IMG/VR virus record: IMGVR_UViG_3300010370_007246 | Location: 1-38,161 of that record | DNA length: 38,161 nucleotides | Source of the DNA: a virus | Strand: one strand, 5' to 3' | In this document: in pieces, positions 4,905 through 27,279 of the stretch | Numbering within the stretch: the stretch's first letter is position 1 | How the letters are laid out: each line of letters opens with the position of its first letter | Program-made: the position numbers and the translations under genes | The notes under the pieces: model-generated | What the model was told of the DNA's origin: nothing | Databases searched by the model: none | What the model saw: the letters and a program-made list of their open reading frames with translations, nothing else

Positions 4905-6671
4905 ATGGAGGAAAAAATAATTTTGGTTGAAAGTAGGGTATCTGACCTGAGGGAGAAATTCGGTAAGAAATTTTCGCAAGAACAGATGGAAAAAATTATC
5001 GATGAAATTCCCTCCAAGTATTATCCTTGGGCTGCTAAGGTATTGGATCAAATAGGTTTCGATACTAAGTTCCCTATTGTGAAAAATCTTTTGGATTACT
5101 TCAATAAGTTCGGATCAAATTTAGCTAAGACAGATATATTCCAATATACCACAATTGAACAGCTACAGGACGAACTCAACAAATACGCCGAAAAACAAAA
5201 AAGAAATTATAAGAAGGTACAAGGTGCGAATGTGGTTTATGAATCTCCAAAATACCTTGTGGTTAATCCTCTCAGTCATGAGTCCTCCTGTTATTATGGT
5301 AAGGGAACTAAGTGGTGTACTAGCGGAAGAGACTCCTCAGATACTTTCAACAGATATAATACTGATGGGAAGTTATTTTACATTATCGACAAAACTCTCC
5401 CTTCGAGTGACCCGAATTATAAAATTGCTTTGTCATTGAAGTTCGATGGTGATGAGTCTTTTTATGATGCAGTGGATAATGCTTTGAGAAATCCATCGTT
5501 ATTTGAAACCGCAGAGTTTAAGAGCTTGATGGAAAAGATCAAATCTTATTTGAACACTGAATATTCTGAACAAGTTAAGACTGAACAGGAAAAGAAACGT
5601 CAGAAGATGGAAGCCGAAAAACAAAGAAGGTTGGAGGTTCAGAGGATCAAAATGGCAAAAAGAGCGGAGGCTGATGAAAGGAGGGTAGAACAAGAATGGG
5701 CTCTGACAAATGATATAGATGATGAGGGGAAAATGGCTTGGGCGGTTCTGAATTACTTGGAAAGTGAAGGTGCCAATGTAAGGGATAGAGAACAAGAAGA
5801 AAGACTCTCTGAAATTCAGGTACAGTTGGACCAATTAAATGCTGAATATGAGGCAGACCCTGAATTTAGATCCGACATATATGATCAAATTACAGAATTA
5901 GAAGACGAGAGAGACGAGATCTTGGAAATGATAGATGTTTATTACATCATACCACAAAGATACGAACATTATGGACTTTCTCAGTTTGAGGTTACTCACG
6001 ATGATTTCTATGGACAAACATTTGCGGTTGGTACAGAATCAGAAGTTGAAGAGGCAGCTGAAGAATATGTTAGATCTCTTATTGACGATATCGGAATTGT
6101 AGGTTTTAATAAAAGTTTTTATTCTGGTTATATTGACGAGGATGCTGTCTTGACTTATGCAAGGGATCTTTACGAGGACGACGTGTATCAGAATCCTGAC
6201 GTTTATTTATCAGATGATGATAGATTATTAAGTACAAAACAAATCGATACCATCAACTACAAAAAGACCGTAATTTCTAGATTAGAAAAACAAAAAGATG
6301 ATTTGGATAATTTAACGATTGAATTGGAGGATGAAGATGAGATCGAAAGAGTTGAATCAAAAATCGAGGAGATAGATGAACAAATCGAAGAACTGGAGAA
6401 CGAAATTGAAGAGATTGAATCACAACCTGATGGAGATTGGCCTGACGCTTTGATGGAAGAAAAAGTTGAAGATTTAGTTACTTATGCTGAACGTAATATA
6501 GAGTACTTCATGGAAGATCACGGACTTAATATTGAAGATTACATTGATATTGATGAATTCGTTAAGGCGGTTGTTGATCAAGATGGTTATGGACAACTAA
6601 GCTCTTATGATGGGAACTATGAGATTTTCAAAGTTATGGGTGAAGAATACTACATATTCAGAATTGATTAA
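4905..6671 (+). CDS. Large phage protein with KWCTSG motif and acidic coiled-coil C-terminus
   Basis: The protein has 588 residues. The N-terminus (MEEKIILVESRVSDLREKF) resembles a short tag shared with other proteins here. Around residues 125-165 lies YGKGTKWCTSGRDSSDTF followed by LFYIIDK, a conserved block I have seen in phage proteins of unknown function. From about residue 205 to 265 and 430 to 500 the chain is charged and strongly coiled-coil-like. The C-terminal half is very acidic. It has no signal peptide or membrane segment. It heads a rightward unit with the next gene 26 nt downstream. The Cys in KWC could be catalytic, but there is no direct evidence. It may be a virion or internal protein. 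Confidence 0.75.
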   Translation: MEEKIILVESRVSDLREKFGKKFSQEQMEKIIDEIPSKYYPWAAKVLDQIGFDTKFPIVKNLLDYFNKFGSNLAKTDIFQYTTIEQLQDELNKYAEKQKRNYKKVQGANVVYESPKYLVVNPLSHESSCYYGKGTKWCTSGRDSSDTFNRYNTDGKLFYIIDKTLPSSDPNYKIALSLKFDGDESFYDAVDNALRNPSLFETAEFKSLMEKIKSYLNTEYSEQVKTEQEKKRQKMEAEKQRRLEVQRIKMAKRAEADERRVEQEWALTNDIDDEGKMAWAVLNYLESEGANVRDREQEERLSEIQVQLDQLNAEYEADPEFRSDIYDQITELEDERDEILEMIDVYYIIPQRYEHYGLSQFEVTHDDFYGQTFAVGTESEVEEAAEEYVRSLIDDIGIVGFNKSFYSGYIDEDAVLTYARDLYEDDVYQNPDVYLSDDDRLLSTKQIDTINYKKTVISRLEKQKDDLDNLTIELEDEDEIERVESKIEEIDEQIEELENEIEEIESQPDGDWPDALMEEKVEDLVTYAERNIEYFMEDHGLNIEDYIDIDEFVKAVVDQDGYGQLSSYDGNYEIFKVMGEEYYIFRID

Positions 6672-14867: not shown

Positions 14868-15407
14868 ATGTCCAAAAAGGTATACACAAAAAAAGGTGAT
14901 GACGGCACCACAAGTCTACTGTCAGGAAGAAGAGTTTCCAAAACAATTCAAGAAATTAAAGCTGTTGGTTCATTAGATGAACTCAACTCATTCGTTGGTC
15001 TACTCAGGAGTGAGACAGCTAATGCTCACGTTCAATTAGAAATTATTCAGTGGAATCTATTCAATGCTGGATCAATGTTGATCAATGATAATGAAACTGA
15101 ACTAACTGAGGTAACACAAGAAGATGTGAAAATATTAGAGGAGGCGATGGATACTATGAACAAAGAACTTCCCGAACTCAAAAACTTCATTTTACCAAAA
15201 GGTACAAGAGCGGTTGCATTGGCTCACATCTGTAGAACAATTGCGAGAAGAACCGAAATACAAGTTTTGGAATGTAAAATCCTCGATAATTTTATTAAAC
15301 TTCATCCAATTACAATATATTTGAACAGACTGAGTGATTTCTTTTTTGTACTTGCAAGGTACATCGGTCACAAGGAAGATGTTAATGAAACTATTTGGAA
15401 AAATTAA
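14868..15407 (+). CDS. PduO-type cob(I)alamin adenosyltransferase
   Basis: The protein has 179 residues and matches the PduO/MMAB family that moves the adenosyl group of ATP to cob(I)alamin, making coenzyme B12. It shows KKGDDGTTSLLSG (8-20), SLDELNSFVGLL (35-46), ILPKGT (108-113), RTIARRTE (123-130) and YLNRLSDFFFVLARY (151-165), all in family order and at normal length. It would support B12-dependent enzymes such as class II ribonucleotide reductase; none lies in this window. It sits 17 nt after the DHH gene and meets the leftward DUF192 gene tail to tail with a 4-nt overlap. Confidence 0.9.
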   Translation: MSKKVYTKKGDDGTTSLLSGRRVSKTIQEIKAVGSLDELNSFVGLLRSETANAHVQLEIIQWNLFNAGSMLINDNETELTEVTQEDVKILEEAMDTMNKELPELKNFILPKGTRAVALAHICRTIARRTEIQVLECKILDNFIKLHPITIYLNRLSDFFFVLARYIGHKEDVNETIWKN

Positions 15408-15754
15408 TTCAGGATATAATTAACTGAGTCACCAGCTTCGATACCAAGCCTATCGCAGGTGCCACCCATAACCTCGAGTACAATATTACCGTTACCACAG
15501 TAGGATGGACAATCATCATCGTTACATGGAGGACAATTGTGATGAATGTTTACGACAACGTTATTTTTGATAACAATAATATCCAAAGGGATAATACAAT
15601 TCTTCATCCAAAAACATTGTTCGTCACCTCCCATAAGGAACAACATACCGTTGAATGATTCATCGAACGTTTTTTTCATCATTCCAATTTTTTGTTCTTT
15701 TGGAGAGACTAAAGTTTTGACATTAAAAATATTTTTCCCTACCTTTACATTCAT
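15404..15754 (-). CDS. DUF192 family protein
   Basis: The protein has 116 residues from the ATG at 15754 (MNVKVGKNIFNVKTLVSPKE); the frame also opens at 15787, but the TATTTAT box 4 nt upstream supports 15754. It matches DUF192: SPKEQKIGMMKKTFDESF, then GMLFLM, FWMKNCIIPLDIIVI. The C-terminal part departs from the family with Cys-rich CPPCNDDDCPSYCGNG. DUF192 proteins are small beta-rich folds of unknown function, often exported, but no signal peptide is visible here. It is convergent with the cobalamin gene and divergent from Nudix, sharing a palindromic box. Confidence 0.8.
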   Translation of the reverse strand: MNVKVGKNIFNVKTLVSPKEQKIGMMKKTFDESFNGMLFLMGGDEQCFWMKNCIIPLDIIVIKNNVVVNIHHNCPPCNDDDCPSYCGNGNIVLEVMGGTCDRLGIEAGDSVNYILN

Positions 15755-15765
15755 ATTTATAAATA
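15754..15765. promoter_or_regulatory. Palindromic TATTTATAAATA divergent box
   Basis: The 12-bp palindrome gives a TATTTAT box on each strand: 4 nt before the leftward ATG at 15754 and 7 nt before the rightward ATG at 15768. The leftward start codon's first base pairs with the palindrome edge. Confidence 0.6.
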
Positions 15766-15767
15766 CA

Positions 15768-16187
15768 ATGGATAAAAAAAGATACACCGGAGTAATGGTA
15801 AAATGTGGAGATAAAGTTCTCCTCGCTAAAAGAAATAGTCAAGGAGCGTTTCCTGGTATGTGGTCAATCTTTGGGGGCAAACTAGAAGAAAATGAAACAA
15901 CCATGGAAGGTGCCAAACGTGAGTTCTTTGAAGAAACTGCGATTGACATTGATGAAAAAGATCTAAAGTTCATAGGTCTAATTCCGAGACATACTCGTGA
16001 TGGAAACAAAGTGAAGGGTTTGATGTATGTGTATCTTTTGGATACTCAAAATCCAATTGAACCTGATCTAGAAAACGCGATTGATGGTGAAGAACACACA
16101 GAATGGGGTTACTTTTCTTTGGATCAAATCGACCCAATGAAAACAGGACATTATATTCATAGAATAGCAGAAATTATATTACAATGA
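15768..16187 (+). CDS. Nudix hydrolase
   Basis: The protein has 139 residues from the ATG at 15768; the upstream frame from 15546 is antisense to DUF192 and is not used. The Nudix box is complete at residues 37-59: G-x5-E-x7-REFFEE-x-A-I. It removes a nucleoside diphosphate-linked group, using Mg2+ held by the box glutamates. The SIFGGKLEENE context and MYVYLL strand resemble MutT-like NTP cleaners. The substrate is unknown. Its TGA overlaps the start of a 34-residue peptide. Confidence 0.9.
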   Translation: MDKKRYTGVMVKCGDKVLLAKRNSQGAFPGMWSIFGGKLEENETTMEGAKREFFEETAIDIDEKDLKFIGLIPRHTRDGNKVKGLMYVYLLDTQNPIEPDLENAIDGEEHTEWGYFSLDQIDPMKTGHYIHRIAEIILQ

Positions 16188-16288
16188 TAGTATTAATATT
16201 AATTTGTTCAGTTATCGTTATAGGTATCTATGGTTACTTTGACATGATGAAACAAATAAAAAAGATGGTTGACAAAGTAGATATGTAA
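16184..16288 (+). CDS. 34-residue membrane peptide
   Basis: A small ORF of 34 residues starts inside the Nudix stop (ATGA overlap). Residues 2-19 are a hydrophobic membrane segment (IVLILICSVIVIGIYGYF) followed by a basic tail (KQIKKMVDKVDM). The coupling and clear single-span shape support a real gene. Function unknown. Confidence 0.6.
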   Translation: MIVLILICSVIVIGIYGYFDMMKQIKKMVDKVDM

Positions 16289-16473
16289 AAAAATCTTCGT
16301 CAAACACTTGTCAGGACCATATTTTTTACTATGTTTGTAGTCCTTTAATACCTAACGGTATATTTATCACTTACCGAAATTAAGATCTTTGAGGGTAACT
16401 ACCCTAAGTGAGTACAACCAGAGCATGACTTGGATGGTGACGAGAAAACGGGTAGTTAAGCCATAATTTATAT
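16289..16473 (+). other. Structured non-coding stretch upstream of the tRNA
   Basis: No plausible ORF. A promoter-like pair TTTG (16334-16337), 21 nt, TATATTTA (16359-16366) is followed by strong pairing. CACTTA and TAAGTG enclose a GGGTA/TACCC hairpin (16393-16397 with 16400-16404). Alternatively TAACTACCC (16396-16404) pairs perfectly with GGGTAGTTA (16450-16458). The two pairings exclude each other. It may be tRNA leader or an independent RNA. Confidence 0.4.
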
Positions 16474-16546
16474 CGCGAGGTAGTAGCAGCGGTAGCTCGC
16501 AAGGCTCATAACCTTGAGGTCGTTGGTTCGATTCCAACCCTCGCAA
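16474..16546 (+). tRNA. Initiator-type tRNA-Met (CAT)
   Basis: Acceptor CGCGAGG (16474-16480) pairs with CCTCGCA (16539-16545), leaving C1 opposite A72 unpaired, the hallmark of bacterial initiator tRNAs. The anticodon stem CAAGG/CCTTG holds CTCATAA (anticodon CAT at 16507-16509), and the T arm is GTTGG-TTCGATT-CCAAC. The D stem reads G-AGC/GCTC with one extra U, giving an A11-U24 pair as in bacterial initiators. Only two of the three G-C pairs above the anticodon loop are kept. CCA is not encoded (CAA follows the discriminator). Confidence 0.85.
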
Positions 16547-16555
16547 CAAAAAAGA

Positions 16556-16587
16556 TTTGACCAATTGAAAAACTTGTCTTATCTTTG
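16556..16587 (+). promoter_or_regulatory. Consensus Bacteroidota promoter
   Basis: TTTG (16556-16559), 20 nt, TATCTTTG (16580-16587). No ORF follows, so it probably drives a small RNA just upstream of the giant RNA. Confidence 0.7.
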
Positions 16588-16592
16588 TAAAC

Positions 16593-16680
16593 CCTTCGGG
16601 TAGTTCCGATGTGGATCTTTGAAATGATGTATTTTTGAACCTGTCCCATTAAGAGTGGGGGGTATTAGAATCAAAAAACA
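16593..16680 (+). ncRNA. Possible small RNA
   Basis: The start is inferred from the promoter at 16556-16587; the 3' end is a guess. It holds a UUC-capped hairpin ACCC/GGGT near its 5' end and a CCCA/TGGG pairing near 16646-16659. There is no clear terminator, so the transcript may instead run on into the giant RNA. Confidence 0.35.
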
Positions 16681-16705
16681 TTTAATCAAAAAAAGTTTCC
16701 AAAAG

Positions 16706-16737
16706 TTTGATTGTTTCCCAAAACACACTTACCTTTG
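16706..16737 (+). promoter_or_regulatory. Consensus Bacteroidota promoter of the giant RNA
   Basis: TTTG (16706-16709), 20 nt, TACCTTTG (16730-16737). The expected start near 16743 falls at the foot of a long 5' hairpin. Confidence 0.75.
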
Positions 16738-16742
16738 TGAAA

Positions 16743-17668
16743 CAAATGAAGGAGACAGGTTGTAAAGATTACCTTCTCCTTCATTTCAAAATGAGTTCTT
16801 TGACTAAAGATATTGGGCCGTCTATGGTCCATAAAATAAACTACGAAAGTAGTATAAAGTGGAACACCCTGGTTTGGGTGGTCTGCGGCTTCTGAGGGAA
16901 ACCTCTTGAGCTCGAGTAGACAAGCAGGATATCATTTGACCTTTAGTACCGAGGGTAACACTGTAGGGAACGTGGTTCGATGAACGGGGGATGCGGGTCC
17001 TTCGTTTGAGGTGGGAACACCAACAAGAGTAACCTGTAGAACGATTGCAAGAAGTAAGGTCATCCAACTTTACAATTGCGTTCTTCAATATCCGAGTTGG
17101 CTTAAAAACCGAAAGGTAAGTTTCATACCAGGTGGTGCTGATGAAACCTTAACCATTTCTCTACCAAGAGAATCGTTATGAAGTTGACTCACAATATGGA
17201 GGTCGGGAGACTTCAGAGGGTAGTTTAGTATCGTGTCGTTCAAAAGATGACATGGCTGGTGACGAGCCGCTACCTTCCTCATCCGTAAACCAACTTTGGA
17301 ATTGCAATGTCCAAAACATTAAAATTAACAAAGGAGAAGTGCTCGTCAGTTGTGTGTGACAGGTCACTACATAGTCGTGAGATGTTCACGGCCGTGAAGG
17401 GTCCCAAGCCCGACATGAGTTTCGAGAAAGTTCTCTAATCCCGCAAGGATGAATTGGTGGGGCACCATCGAAGAGTGATAAGTACCGAGAGAGTCGTATA
17501 CAACTTAAGGATTGGTTAATCTAATTGACCGTGACTGAGGGTTACCGTTCAAAAGACGGTGGAAATGAAAGGAAACAATAATCTTTCTAAAGATCCTTAC
17601 AAAATGGTGTATTCTCAACCTATTTTGCCTAACCCTGACCGTTTCTACGGTTGGGGTTTTTTATTTTA
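16743..17668 (+). ncRNA. Giant structured RNA (about 920 nt; GOLLD/ROOL-like class suspected)
   Basis: About 920 nt with no credible ORF on either strand, with its own promoter and a strong terminator. It opens with a 5' hairpin of about 16 bp (16744-16760 with 16771-16786). Inside are many short perfect stems, several with GNRA loops: 16840-16853 (GAAA), 16894-16905 (GAAA), 17010-17021 (GGAA). Others are 16865-16880, 17038-17043/17079-17084, 17120-17126/17141-17147, 17157-17172, 17219-17223/17270-17274 enclosing 17254-17268, 17385-17398, 17456-17466, 17514-17530 and 17544-17560. Size, phage setting and the adjacent tRNA fit the GOLLD class (also ROOL). I cannot align it to their consensus, so the class is inference. 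Short matches to 16S rRNA words look fortuitous. Confidence 0.8.
17631..17668 (+). terminator. Terminator of the giant RNA
   Basis: An 11-bp stem with two wobbles (17631-17641 with 17648-17658, loop TTTCTA) is followed by TTTTTTATTTT. The T run overlaps the stop of the leftward gene at 17661. Confidence 0.9.
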
Positions 17669-17948
17669 CAAACTTTGAAAATGTGGGAGATTTCTCCAGT
17701 GTCTTTTGAAGATTTGTTTTGTATGATCCTGTCTGTTTCATTTCCTCCCAATAATCTGCGACTTCAGAAGCGAAACTTTTACCCTCGTCGTGGGCTAAAG
17801 CAACATAAATAAAATTTCTTGACAGTCTATCCATATTGTAATCTTCTAATTTCTTAACCAAACCTGATAAAAGAATTTCCCTATATGTTGGAGTTATATT
17901 CAGGTCCCTAAGAATTTTATCTAATATGTCCAAATCTTTTTCTAACAT
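17661..17948 (-). CDS. Hypothetical small helical protein
   Basis: The protein has 95 residues from the ATG at 17948 (MLEKDLDILDKIL); the track start two codons earlier overlaps the TATTTAT box, which ends exactly 4 nt before 17948. It is mostly helical and charged, with no recognised domain. It lies convergent to the giant RNA, its stop inside that RNA's terminator T run, and divergent from the SPFH gene. Confidence 0.65.
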   Translation of the reverse strand: MLEKDLDILDKILRDLNITPTYREILLSGLVKKLEDYNMDRLSRNFIYVALAHDEGKSFASEVADYWEEMKQTGSYKTNLQKTLEKSPTFSKFVK

Positions 17949-17952
17949 ACTC

Positions 17953-17959
17953 ATAAATA
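17953..17959 (-). promoter_or_regulatory. TATTTAT start-proximal box
   Basis: TATTTAT on the minus strand, then GAGT, then the ATG at 17948: spacing of exactly 4 nt. Confidence 0.6.
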
Positions 17960-18004
17960 TTTTGTAGTGTCGAAATATTGGTATAAATTAGCAAAAACAG
18001 ATTT

Positions 18005-18562
18005 ATGTTCGATAAACTCATAGAGGTTTTTGTCACCTTCATACACGACATTCTACCATACAAAATTGTTGATCAATGGGAAAAGGGTGTACACCTCAGA
18101 TACGGAAAATTCATCGGGGTCGTTCACCCTGGATTAAATTGGAAAAGACCATTCTTTGATAAGATTTGGGTAACTCCCGTGATCACTCAAACCGTTAATC
18201 TAAAACCACAAACCGTAACATCATTGGATGATAAATGTGTGGTTCTTTCAAGTATTGTTAGATATCACATTTTCGATGTCGAGAAGTTTTTACTCGGAGT
18301 AATGCATGCCAATGATGTATTAGTGGACACAACTCAAGGTATTATCAGAGATATGGTTGAAAATACTACTTGGGATGAATTAGTTGATCTTACAAAAATA
18401 GTTACTCCTGAGGTTAATCAACATGTAAATAAATGGGGTATAAACGTGGAGATGGTAAGTTTTCCTGATTTAGGTAACATTACCACTTATAGGATTATTA
18501 CAGATGGTGGTGTTAAAGATCATACTTTTCCTGTTCCTACTGGAAACCAGACTCCATCATGA
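18005..18562 (+). CDS. SPFH / band 7 (prohibitin-like) domain protein
   Basis: The protein has 185 residues. GVHLRYGKFIGVVHPGLNWKRPFFDKIWV (residues 28 onward) and VVLSSIVRYHIFDVEKFLLG match the beta-rich SPFH core, and IRDMVENTTWDELV the following helix. SPFH proteins form ring or cage scaffolds on membranes (HflK/C, stomatin, prohibitin). The N-terminal FVTFIHDILPY is only weakly hydrophobic, so membrane anchoring is uncertain, and the usual long C-terminal coiled coil is missing. The 3' end overlaps a convergent sulfotransferase by 6 nt. It could protect phage proteins from FtsH or organise the membrane; unknown. Confidence 0.75.
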   Translation: MFDKLIEVFVTFIHDILPYKIVDQWEKGVHLRYGKFIGVVHPGLNWKRPFFDKIWVTPVITQTVNLKPQTVTSLDDKCVVLSSIVRYHIFDVEKFLLGVMHANDVLVDTTQGIIRDMVENTTWDELVDLTKIVTPEVNQHVNKWGINVEMVSFPDLGNITTYRIITDGGVKDHTFPVPTGNQTPS

Positions 18563-19258
18563 CATCCACGAATCCTTATGATAATCCATGATAATAAATT
18601 TGTCTTTGAAAGTCGTGTAAACTATTTCTGCGGATTCTTGTTTGTAGTATAATTTGAAATCACTCGGAAAATAATTCTCTATGTTCGAGTGATTCTGAAT
18701 GTCTCTGTAGTCACCGTGTTTTTCTTTTGATAACATTTCTATTTGGTCGATTGTTTCTTGACTGTAATTTTTTATAAATGGAATTTGCATTATGTTTTCC
18801 GAAAAACTTTCAAGTTTAATCCTATGATCAATTTTTCTTTTTTTTAGTTGATCAATTGAATTTTTCAGAGAGGGTATTAACCATGGATCGGATTCGTTGT
18901 AAAATAAATATTCTTTGAGAAACTCTATAAATTCGTCTTTAATGTTAAAAGTGGATCTTATTGTTTTTTTGGGTAACATACTCAATCTGAACATACTTGC
19001 AAGAATAGCATAAGGATTTCGACAAGTGATTATAACTTGATGATTCAAATGGTCTTCCATCAGTTTCAAGGTGTGATTATGACTTGGACCCAGATTGATG
19101 AATATGAATTTATTATCATCCCAACCGTAGGTGTTGAAATCCAAAAATTTCAATATTCTTGTTATATTTCGCGATCCTGTTTTGGGAGGTGTTAGGACAA
19201 AACAGTTGTTTTTTTCACTGAAATTCAGAAAAGTGTTATAGTTTGTGATTTCTACCAT
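18557..19258 (-). CDS. PAPS-dependent sulfotransferase
   Basis: The protein has 233 residues. It has the 5'-phosphosulfate loop TPPKTGSR (23-30) and the 3'-phosphate motif CRNPYAILAS (Arg80, Ser88), the two PAPS-binding signatures of sulfotransferases. The C-terminal third (VYTTFKDKFIIMDYHKDSW) resembles the end of the second sulfotransferase at 32319. It moves sulfate from PAPS to an unknown hydroxyl or amine, on a sugar, lipid or protein. PAPS could be supplied by the APS kinase at 9814. No signal peptide is visible, so it acts in the cytoplasm. Confidence 0.8.
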   Translation of the reverse strand: MVEITNYNTFLNFSEKNNCFVLTPPKTGSRNITRILKFLDFNTYGWDDNKFIFINLGPSHNHTLKLMEDHLNHQVIITCRNPYAILASMFRLSMLPKKTIRSTFNIKDEFIEFLKEYLFYNESDPWLIPSLKNSIDQLKKRKIDHRIKLESFSENIMQIPFIKNYSQETIDQIEMLSKEKHGDYRDIQNHSNIENYFPSDFKLYYKQESAEIVYTTFKDKFIIMDYHKDSWMS

Positions 19259-24953: not shown

Positions 24954-25026
24954 AACCATAAGTTAACACCCAATTTAGGTATTCTAACTCTCTGTTTTCT
25001 AATTATTGTTGTCAAAACTTACAAAA

Positions 25027-27279
25027 ATGATTAGAAAATTTTTAGTGTGTTTGATGATTCCCTCCATCGGATTCACTCAAGACACTCTGTTCAACAAGAC
25101 CATGTCAGAGGTTACCATAAGATCTGCGGGAAAGAAAGAATCAAACGTAGCAATTATAAACACGGTTAGAAATAGTTCAGTGATATCCGACGGATTATCA
25201 GTGGAGTCAATTAAAAGAACTCCTGACAGAACTGTTGGAGATGCCTTGAAGAGAGTAAACGGTGTAACAATACAGAACGATAGGTTTGTACTCGTAAGAG
25301 GATTGGCTGACAGATATAATTCTGTAATCCTTAACAAAACAATATTACCATCAACAGAACCTGATAGGAGGGCATTTTCCTTCGATATAATTCCTTCCAA
25401 CATGATTGATAATATTATTGTATCAAAATCTGCAGTGGCTAGTTTGCCTGGTGACTTTGGTGGTGGGGTAGTTCAGATAACAACAAAAGAAGTATCAAAC
25501 AATTTTTTCTCTTTAGGTCTCGGTTCAGGTTACGGGACCGTGTCAACCTTCCAAAAATTCAAATCGGTGGACTTTATTCACTTCCCACAACAGTTTCCTT
25601 CAACATATGTCTTCAGAGTAGGTACAAATGGAGATAGGAGATCTTATACGAAATTAATATCGGCACCTTCCCCGAATGAAACATTTTCTTATCCAAACTT
25701 AAATGGTAACATATCTTTAGGTATAAAGAAAAATAAATGGAACCTTCTTTTATCAACTGTGGCAAGAAACAATTTTTCTTTGAATTATACTGATAGAAAA
25801 GATTATCAGTCATCCACTGAACTTGCATATGATTACAAAGATACTTTATTTACACAGACATCATCCCTGAATGGTTTATTAAATCTTACTTATTTGGGAG
25901 AAAACAGATTCTCTTGGAAAACACTATTCAACCATCAGAATGAAAAATCATTCCTCACAAGAAACGGTGAAAACTATGATAATGTACAAGATGTCAGAAG
26001 TAATTCATCTAATAACATCATAAAAACTGTATTAAACACTCAATTCGATGGTAAGATAAAATCGTTTGACTTTAACGTTGGTTGGAATTTGATGCTCAGG
26101 GATCAACCTGATTACAGAGTAAATCCAATCACAAAGTCCTTAGGTACTAATACCCCGTTCACAACCGCTTGGAGGGACACTTATAGATTTTGGTCCGTAA
26201 TGGATGAAAATTCATTCAATGGATCTGTAAACAAAACATTCGGTGACGTAAAAATAGGGTCTTCATATCTGAAAAAAATCAGAAATTTCAAGGCCAGGAT
26301 ATTCCGATATGATGCTGTAGATTTGATGAACGAAATAACAAATAATACGGACCGTTATACGGCTGATTTTGATCTTTTGGGTGGATATATTCAAATTGAT
26401 AAAAACTTCGGAAATTGGAAGGTAAATGGAGGTTTGAGAACAGAGTATAACATCTTCAATGTAAACACATCAGACTTCAGTGGACAGAAAGTAACCGTTG
26501 ATAGAAATTATCTGGACCTTTTACCCTCAATTAACCTAAGTTATAATTGGACAAAATCAAAATTGAGATTATCAGGATCCAAAACACTTGCAAGACCTGA
26601 ATTTAGAGAAGTTGCAAATTTTGCTTATTATGACTTTGTCAGAAATGCTCAACTCTTGGGTAATCCGAATTTGGAAAAGTCTGACATATACAATTTGGAT
26701 TTCAAATTTGAATACTATCCAAAGACAGGAGAGAATATCTCCATTGCACTATTCACTAAAAACTTCTCAAAACCCATCGAACAAATTGTTGCGGACGGAT
26801 CGGTACCTTCAAATTTATTATTAACCTACACGAATCCGAAGTCTGCCAAGGTATATGGTGCTGAGTTCGAAATCAGAAAGAAAGTATCCAATTGGCTCGA
26901 AATCTATACAAACACCACATTGAATATGTCAGAAGTTGGAATTAACGGAAATAAGAGACAACTCCAAGGACAGTCAAATTATGTGGTAAACGGTGGTTTA
27001 AATGTAATCAAAGGTAAAAATAATTTTTCATTGACCTACAATAAAGTTGGGGAAAGAATATCAGCAGTTGGATTCCAAGGATATCCTGATATATTCGAGA
27101 ACGCAAGAGATATAATTGATTTTGTGATTCTGAGAAAAATTAAAAATGGTGAAATAAAATTATCGGTTGGAGACATTCTTGCACAACCATCAAAATATTT
27201 TCAAAAAATAAACAACAGAGATCTGATCAAAACAAATAATGAACAATCAGTTGCTCTTTCCTTAAATCTAAATTTATGA
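25027..27279 (+). CDS. TonB-dependent outer-membrane receptor
   Basis: The protein has 750 residues from the ATG at 25027; a TTG at 25006 opens the frame but lacks a signal peptide shape. Residues 1-18 (MIRKFLVCLMIPSIGFTQ) are a signal peptide. A plug domain follows (TVGDALKRVNGVTIQ, VLVRGLADRYNSVILN, GDFGGGVVQITTKE), then a 22-strand-type barrel to the C-terminal LNLNL. The N-terminal carboxypeptidase-regulatory domain common in Bacteroidota receptors is absent. It would sit in the host outer membrane and import a ligand with TonB. It overlaps the lipoprotein start by 4 nt. In a phage this is exceptional; it may change nutrient uptake or block superinfection. Confidence 0.9.
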   Translation: MIRKFLVCLMIPSIGFTQDTLFNKTMSEVTIRSAGKKESNVAIINTVRNSSVISDGLSVESIKRTPDRTVGDALKRVNGVTIQNDRFVLVRGLADRYNSVILNKTILPSTEPDRRAFSFDIIPSNMIDNIIVSKSAVASLPGDFGGGVVQITTKEVSNNFFSLGLGSGYGTVSTFQKFKSVDFIHFPQQFPSTYVFRVGTNGDRRSYTKLISAPSPNETFSYPNLNGNISLGIKKNKWNLLLSTVARNNFSLNYTDRKDYQSSTELAYDYKDTLFTQTSSLNGLLNLTYLGENRFSWKTLFNHQNEKSFLTRNGENYDNVQDVRSNSSNNIIKTVLNTQFDGKIKSFDFNVGWNLMLRDQPDYRVNPITKSLGTNTPFTTAWRDTYRFWSVMDENSFNGSVNKTFGDVKIGSSYLKKIRNFKARIFRYDAVDLMNEITNNTDRYTADFDLLGGYIQIDKNFGNWKVNGGLRTEYNIFNVNTSDFSGQKVTVDRNYLDLLPSINLSYNWTKSKLRLSGSKTLARPEFREVANFAYYDFVRNAQLLGNPNLEKSDIYNLDFKFEYYPKTGENISIALFTKNFSKPIEQIVADGSVPSNLLLTYTNPKSAKVYGAEFEIRKKVSNWLEIYTNTTLNMSEVGINGNKRQLQGQSNYVVNGGLNVIKGKNNFSLTYNKVGERISAVGFQGYPDIFENARDIIDFVILRKIKNGEIKLSVGDILAQPSKYFQKINNRDLIKTNNEQSVALSLNLNL

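Follow-up and report, generated by a model that had tools for sequence, protein, structure and literature searches.

Background

The GOLLD class of large RNAs, the cage that it forms and its neighbourhood of tRNA genes are already known, and a rise in expression during lysis is counted among the marks of the class. The structure of the marine member env-38, of ~833 nt, has been solved by cryo-EM as a 14-mer cage (PMC12286853). GOLLD cages are empty but for a linker, sometimes contain tRNAs, and are reported to bind ribosomes in pull-downs (PMC12286853). ROOL, like the RNA studied here a large phage RNA located near tRNAs, has also been published as a cage, although it is distinct from our RNA in sequence and secondary structure. 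A different kind of system to be considered is the boxA element of rRNA operons, which works with NusB and S10 and is also used by CRISPR arrays (PMC7862264); in Legionella, boxA GTTCTTTAAAA raised transcription of a CRISPR array ~10-fold (PMC7862264).

Here we describe an RNA locus in a virus record of 38,161 bases, analysed over its full length and referred to as the window. We consider it probable that this locus specifies the GOLLD RNA of a large lytic phage, likely of Bacteroidota, and that this RNA is made from a transcription unit of its own, relies on boxA antitermination and assembles into a cage. As in env-38, there is a full 3' domain model and a variable 5' domain, the size is comparable (~880 nt), a tRNA-Met lies upstream, and a covarying candidate L20 contact, a GC/CG switch in a putative L21a and a variable linker inside the 3' domain can be recognized. 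Unlike env-38 as published, the RNA comes with a sigma-A promoter, a boxA-like element and a terminator, and its linker lacks a tRNA. The features of the locus are listed in Table 1.

Table 1. Positions of the features of the RNA locus in the window
Feature	Position	Strand	Basis or remarks
Promoter P1	16308-16337	+	TTGTCA ... TATGTTTG; Bacteroidota sigma-A type; upstream of small RNA 1 and tRNA
Small structured RNA 1	16390-16471	+	Conserved; directly upstream of tRNA
Initiator-type tRNA-Met	16474-16547	+	CAT anticodon; CTCATAA loop, C1:A72 mismatch
Promoter P2	16557-16587	+	TTGACC ... TATCTTTG; promoter motif
Small structured RNA 2	~16590-16684	+	Conserved; between P2 and the GOLLD promoter
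GOLLD promoter P3	16707-16737	+	TTGATT-N17-TACCTTTG; Bacteroidota sigma-A type; inferred start 16742
5' terminal hairpin, 16 bp	16744-16786	+	Folding; similar hairpins in most relatives
boxA-like element GTTCTTTGA	16795-16803	+	Between GOLLD promoter and fold
GOLLD 5' domain (cap domain in published cage)	16815-17215	+	Helices 1-20, compensatory changes throughout
Fourth covarying contact	16821-16822 x 16919-16920	+	Contact search
5'-domain loop x linker start, predicted	16992-16995 x 17284-17287	+	UGUG/CACA, UCCG/CGGA, UACG/CGUA, UGUA/UACA
GOLLD 3' domain	17216-17621	+	Full RF02032 match
Variable linker inside 3' domain	17279-17332	+	Counterpart of the disordered linker in the published cage (PMC12286853)
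Loop L20 x joining strand, candidate	17403-17405 x 17333-17335	+	Covarying GG/CC, GC/GC, GA/UC, UCGA/UCGA
Pseudoknot strands	17363-17366 x 17532-17535	+	4/4 pairs with double changes, 100% paired (helix 25)
Intrinsic terminator	17631-17665	+	12-bp stem 17631-17658, then T-run

Assignment to the GOLLD class

An Rfam scan matched the stretch given as the 3' domain in Table 1 to RF02032 (GOLLD) with 320.8 bits and an E-value of 2.7e-91, along model positions 1-416 of 416 (the curated covariance-model cut-off is 150 bits). No ROOL match was obtained at the gathering threshold, nor at E <= 5 in a permissive scan of 16000-18600. We assign the RNA at 16742-17665 to GOLLD as a new member. This agrees with an earlier note on this DNA, which had guessed at GOLLD from the presence of a large RNA beside a tRNA in what it took for a phage: the source is a virus record, and the start site comes 195 nt after the initiator tRNA. 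The two other options mentioned there, ROOL and a new giant phage RNA, share the size and the phage setting but must now be regarded as extremely improbable, ROOL being unmatched in both scans and a new class being excluded because RF02032 is matched over the whole model. The structured, less conserved 5' domain and the total of >800 nt that mark the class were also found, with ~880 nt from the start site to 17621.

The closest GOLLDs show 83% identity over the full length. Among 50 viral records holding a relative of the 588-aa protein encoded at 4905-6671, 36 also carry a GOLLD above the cut-off; for the protein itself, the matches to a structural protein of a jumbo phage are local and weak. 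A GOLLD of the lineage of the window was also seen in LR745206.1, an unannotated phage of 634,780 bases (locus L420, 1341-2256), together with boxA and promoter-like sites. A degenerate DNA pattern for GOLLD gave no match in the viral collection, and none of 296 Bacteroidota genomes contained a GOLLD as a prophage feature, which is weak evidence since the control genomes likewise gave 0. The GOLLDs of phages Herod (Acinetobacter), Rope (Mycobacterium) and Javan636 (Streptococcus) and of DSS3_MAL1 exceed the RF02032 cut-off, as the one described here does, and three of these four are located among tRNA genes.

The possibility that the interval hides a protein-coding gene was rejected. Three antisense ORFs of 63-88 aa are present inside the RNA, but not one of the 30 relatives keeps any of them open, no other frame is conserved across these, and the longest reading frames of the relatives are about as long as in shuffles. 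The absence of a credible ORF, pointed out earlier from the window alone, thus holds across the relatives, and we give a hidden gene practically no credence.

Fold and contacts within the RNA

The fold energy of 16743-17668 is well below that of shuffled sequences (z = -6.7). Covariation was evaluated in an alignment, from boxA to the 3' end, of 31 non-redundant members with <96% mutual identity. The structure comprises 231 base pairs in 38 helices; changes on both sides were found at 163 of the pairs, and 95.1% of the cells hold standard pairs. The covariation score was 0.54, compared with 0.22 in shuffles and ~0.1 with partners slid; none of 500 shuffles was as good, a control that is inflated by kinship among the sequences, and the slid controls were 38-44% paired. 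Covariation supports the fold in both domains, 5' as well as 3'. Stems had been anticipated in the earlier note, and nearly all helices do show compensatory changes, although their number is 38 and not the dozen proposed there; covariation among homologs, which it had suggested looking for, is present in the alignment.

Two pairings proposed by RNAalifold were dropped. One consisted of three base pairs between 16795-16797 and the 3' end, the other was a helix at 17261-17277/17333-17347; both the Rfam helix and covariation speak instead for 17216-17224/17269-17277.

A search of the alignment for extra contacts returned four (Table 1). Besides the pseudoknot and the fourth contact, the pairing of a 5'-domain loop with the start of the linker is a predicted contact between the 5' and 3' domains. 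The covarying pairing of the loop at 17403-17405 with a joining strand fits the intermolecular kissing bridge B7, formed by L20 and J13/15, of which it is a candidate counterpart; in LR745206.1 this contact takes the self-complementary form UCGA/UCGA. In addition, a loop palindrome switches from CGCAAG (centre GC) in the clade of the window to GTCGAAT (centre CG) in the other clade, and this GC/CG loop fits the published L21a (bridge B8) of the env-38 cryo-EM structure. The names L20, J13/15 and L21a are assigned by position and pattern.

Because loop contacts of the env-38 cryo-EM structure appear to be conserved, we expect that the RNA, once folded into its 5' and 3' domains, probably assembles as the published 14-mer cage. 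Some GOLLDs have a tRNA within the linker, but none was found at that place in the window. The GOLLD match of DSS3_MAL1 (locus L435, 1070-1533) includes a tRNA-Arg and has tRNAs before it and a phage tmRNA after it. In the 31-member alignment, which can be used for structure work, compensatory changes back each of the two domains as well as contacts that link them.

The transcription unit

Promoter, 5' hairpin, ~840 nt of structured RNA and intrinsic terminator follow one another as a single unit at 16742-17665. The -7 box TAnnTTTG of Flavobacterium sigma-A promoters spans -12 to -5 (PMC9723704), and the +1 was placed at 16742 by this rule, one base away from the start given in the earlier note, where a promoter, a 16-bp hairpin at the site of initiation and a strong terminator had all been read correctly. 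A consensus promoter is located <=230 nt upstream of boxA in 27 of 31 relatives. A sigma-70 scan missed the GOLLD promoter since that scan is built on the E. coli consensus. The 5' hairpin is absent from those relatives whose boxA comes directly after the start site. Downstream, the stem at 17631-17658 is the sole terminator-like site within 16000-18600, and in most relatives a T-run occurs 23-52 nt past the 3' end. There is thus strong computational support for an independent unit, extending from a host sigma-A promoter to an intrinsic terminator; host sigma-A RNA polymerase would start the GOLLD RNA at this promoter and the terminator would end it.

Weak similarity of the terminator region to PyrR and L10 leaders, scoring below the cut-offs of both, could be taken to mean a cis-regulatory leader or attenuator of a downstream gene; this is very improbable, as the ORF listed next (17661-17954) lies on the opposite strand and the covarying GOLLD fold of 840 nt runs into the terminator. 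The 3' end is organized differently in Herod, Javan636 and one 642-kb phage, where 10-11 nt separate the GOLLD match from the start of a tRNA; this suggests that the 3' end is generated otherwise than by a terminator as in the window, in Herod and Javan636 by co-transcription and tRNA processing.

A boxA-like element in the leader

The element GTTCTTTGA is exact in 29 of the 31 members, the other two having GTTCTTAGA, with one change, and it is the only 9-mer common to more than 22 of the 31 leaders. Its position is flexible: it follows the promoter, where this is of the consensus type, at a distance of 16-166 nt and precedes a reference point in the fold by 37-131 nt. Conservation of a sequence whose place shifts in this way suggests a site for a protein more than a piece of the fold.

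Whether GTTCTTTGA corresponds to the boxA of Bacteroidota rRNA operons was tested on rRNA spacers. An exact search of bacterial genomes with the longer form GTTCTTTGACATATTGG gave matches mostly in Bacteroidota, and 40 of 80 loci were 5-294 nt upstream of 23S. This query is biased, so 41 Bacteroidota genomes were sampled without regard to the element, and 16S-23S spacers were located by coordinates; GTTC[TA]TTGA was present <=350 nt upstream of 23S in 14 of the 17 spacers for which the start of 23S could be read, compared with 0 of 17 for the internal control. The element thus equals in sequence the boxA of the rRNA operons of likely hosts, and it stands, as a boxA would, in a leader after the promoter. 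At two Bacteroidales loci (L210, L225), GTTCTTTGACATATTGG is followed after 128-140 nt by a CRISPR array, which would fit boxA-aided transcription of the arrays. CRISPR arrays were also considered as an explanation for the remaining genomic copies of GTTCTTTGACATATTGG and discarded, only 2 of 37 checked being next to one. In Bacteroidales genomes GTTCTTTGACATATTGGTTTACACG also occurs away from 23S or any detectable CRISPR array (loci L190, L203, L244, L257, L258, L259 and others), where it may head some other boxA-led transcript.

We regard it as likely that the boxA-like element recruits the NusB/S10 antitermination complex that the host uses for rRNA, by which this ~920-nt, never translated RNA would escape Rho and be made in quantity. 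The arrangement resembles that of rRNA operons, with GTTCTTTGA in a leader that follows a sigma-A promoter, has a tRNA for a neighbour and precedes a long untranslated RNA; unlike the rRNA and CRISPR users of boxA, the RNA is a GOLLD, of the cage class, and not rRNA or pre-crRNA, and the function of boxA is here putative. An alternative is that the RNA is a GOLLD but GTTCTTTGA serves as a processing site, as part of the fold or as the site of some other protein. The link to NusB/S10 is drawn from sequence and position, and the element is missing from other GOLLDs, both of which leave some room for this alternative; yet a base-paired part would be ill-fitting for an element that floats to such an extent, its sequence equals the spacer element of the rRNA of likely hosts, and elements of this type recur near the starts of several upstream transcripts, so that we hold it to be unlikely.

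Antitermination by NusB/S10 would in any case be particular to these phages. No boxA-like element was found near the GOLLDs of the Acinetobacter, Mycobacterium and Streptococcus phages, of DSS3_MAL1 or of the 642-kb phage, and since these five unrelated loci lack it, boxA as a general GOLLD feature was rejected and is seen as a trait of this phage lineage. What appears to be new is the lineage-wide presence, in GOLLD leaders, of a boxA-like element of the host rRNA form; no report of boxA in GOLLD was found in the literature searched, which is weak evidence because it consisted mostly of open-access papers. If the link to boxA is true, the phage should run short of cage RNA when NusB is kept from binding, and a phage cage RNA would join rRNA and CRISPR arrays as a long untranslated RNA dependent on boxA.

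An RNA island upstream of GOLLD

The initiator tRNA noticed earlier is borne out by its anticodon, loop and terminal mismatch; the last two also occur in most of its relatives, and a tRNA-Met lies upstream of GOLLD in 22 of 30 relatives. It is accompanied by two small structured RNAs, neither of which has an Rfam match. Small RNA 1 has a boxA-like GATCTTTGA at its 5' side (16384-16392), a core GTACAACCAGNGCATGACNTGGAT(A)GGTGAC and a covarying outer stem, and, of 45 records searched, 12 contain it, each of them together with GOLLD. Small RNA 2 has its own 5' hairpin, a boxA-like GATCTTTGA at 16614-16622 and a conserved hairpin AACCTGTCCCATTAAGAGTGGGGGGT, in which AACCTGTC...GGGGGT is invariant; it may be a separate RNA or belong to a longer GOLLD leader. 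The boxA-like element thus recurs near the start of several transcripts upstream of GOLLD. Promoters of sigma-A type are also frequent in this region, averaging 2.7 per 600 nt in the relatives, against 0.04 when sequences are shuffled and 0.11 for the downstream control.

This layout bears on whether GOLLD is normally made from P3 or forms the 3' portion of a longer precursor, in which P1 or P2 would drive the tRNA, a small RNA and GOLLD together, much as in an rRNA operon, P3 being one of three tandem promoters. No terminator was found between the three promoters, which all lie within 430 nt, and relatives repeat the tandem layout, but P3 shows conservation and its start site is where the 5' hairpin begins; we view a precursor as possible, though somewhat doubtful, and keep the independent unit as the preferred reading.

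A broader and speculative proposal is that the whole island mimics an rRNA operon, combining tandem sigma-A promoters, the boxA of host rRNA, an initiator tRNA, two small RNAs and the cage RNA, so that host antitermination would mass-produce cages whose cargo is maybe the co-transcribed initiator tRNA or the small RNAs. The RNA would presumably act late in infection. Because published cages sometimes hold tRNAs and bind ribosomes (PMC12286853), we may tentatively guess at a translation-related cargo at that stage, such as phage tRNA or ribosome-associated material.

Host and neighbouring genes

The host of the phage is most likely a member of the Bacteroidota, given the promoters, the form of boxA and the presence in the window of a gene for an outer-membrane protein of Bacteroidota type; the suggestion of a Bacteroidota phage in the earlier note fits these same features, the host itself being inferred. 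GOLLDs are very large RNA-only cages, and connecting this lineage with probable Bacteroidota phages provides culturable candidate hosts.

The outer-membrane protein (757 aa, 25006-27279) combines a TonB-dependent receptor plug (PF07715) with a Bacteroidota-type outer-membrane beta-barrel (PF14905) and is unusual for a phage contig. Just upstream of the RNA island, 14868-16187 encodes a cobalamin adenosyltransferase (PF01923) adjoining a NUDIX protein, and just past the GOLLD terminator there is a gene for an SPFH/Band 7 domain protein (18005-18562). The protein encoded at 3-1964, probably a tail fibre, has collagen repeats and, at its C-terminus, an endosialidase chaperone (Peptidase_S74).
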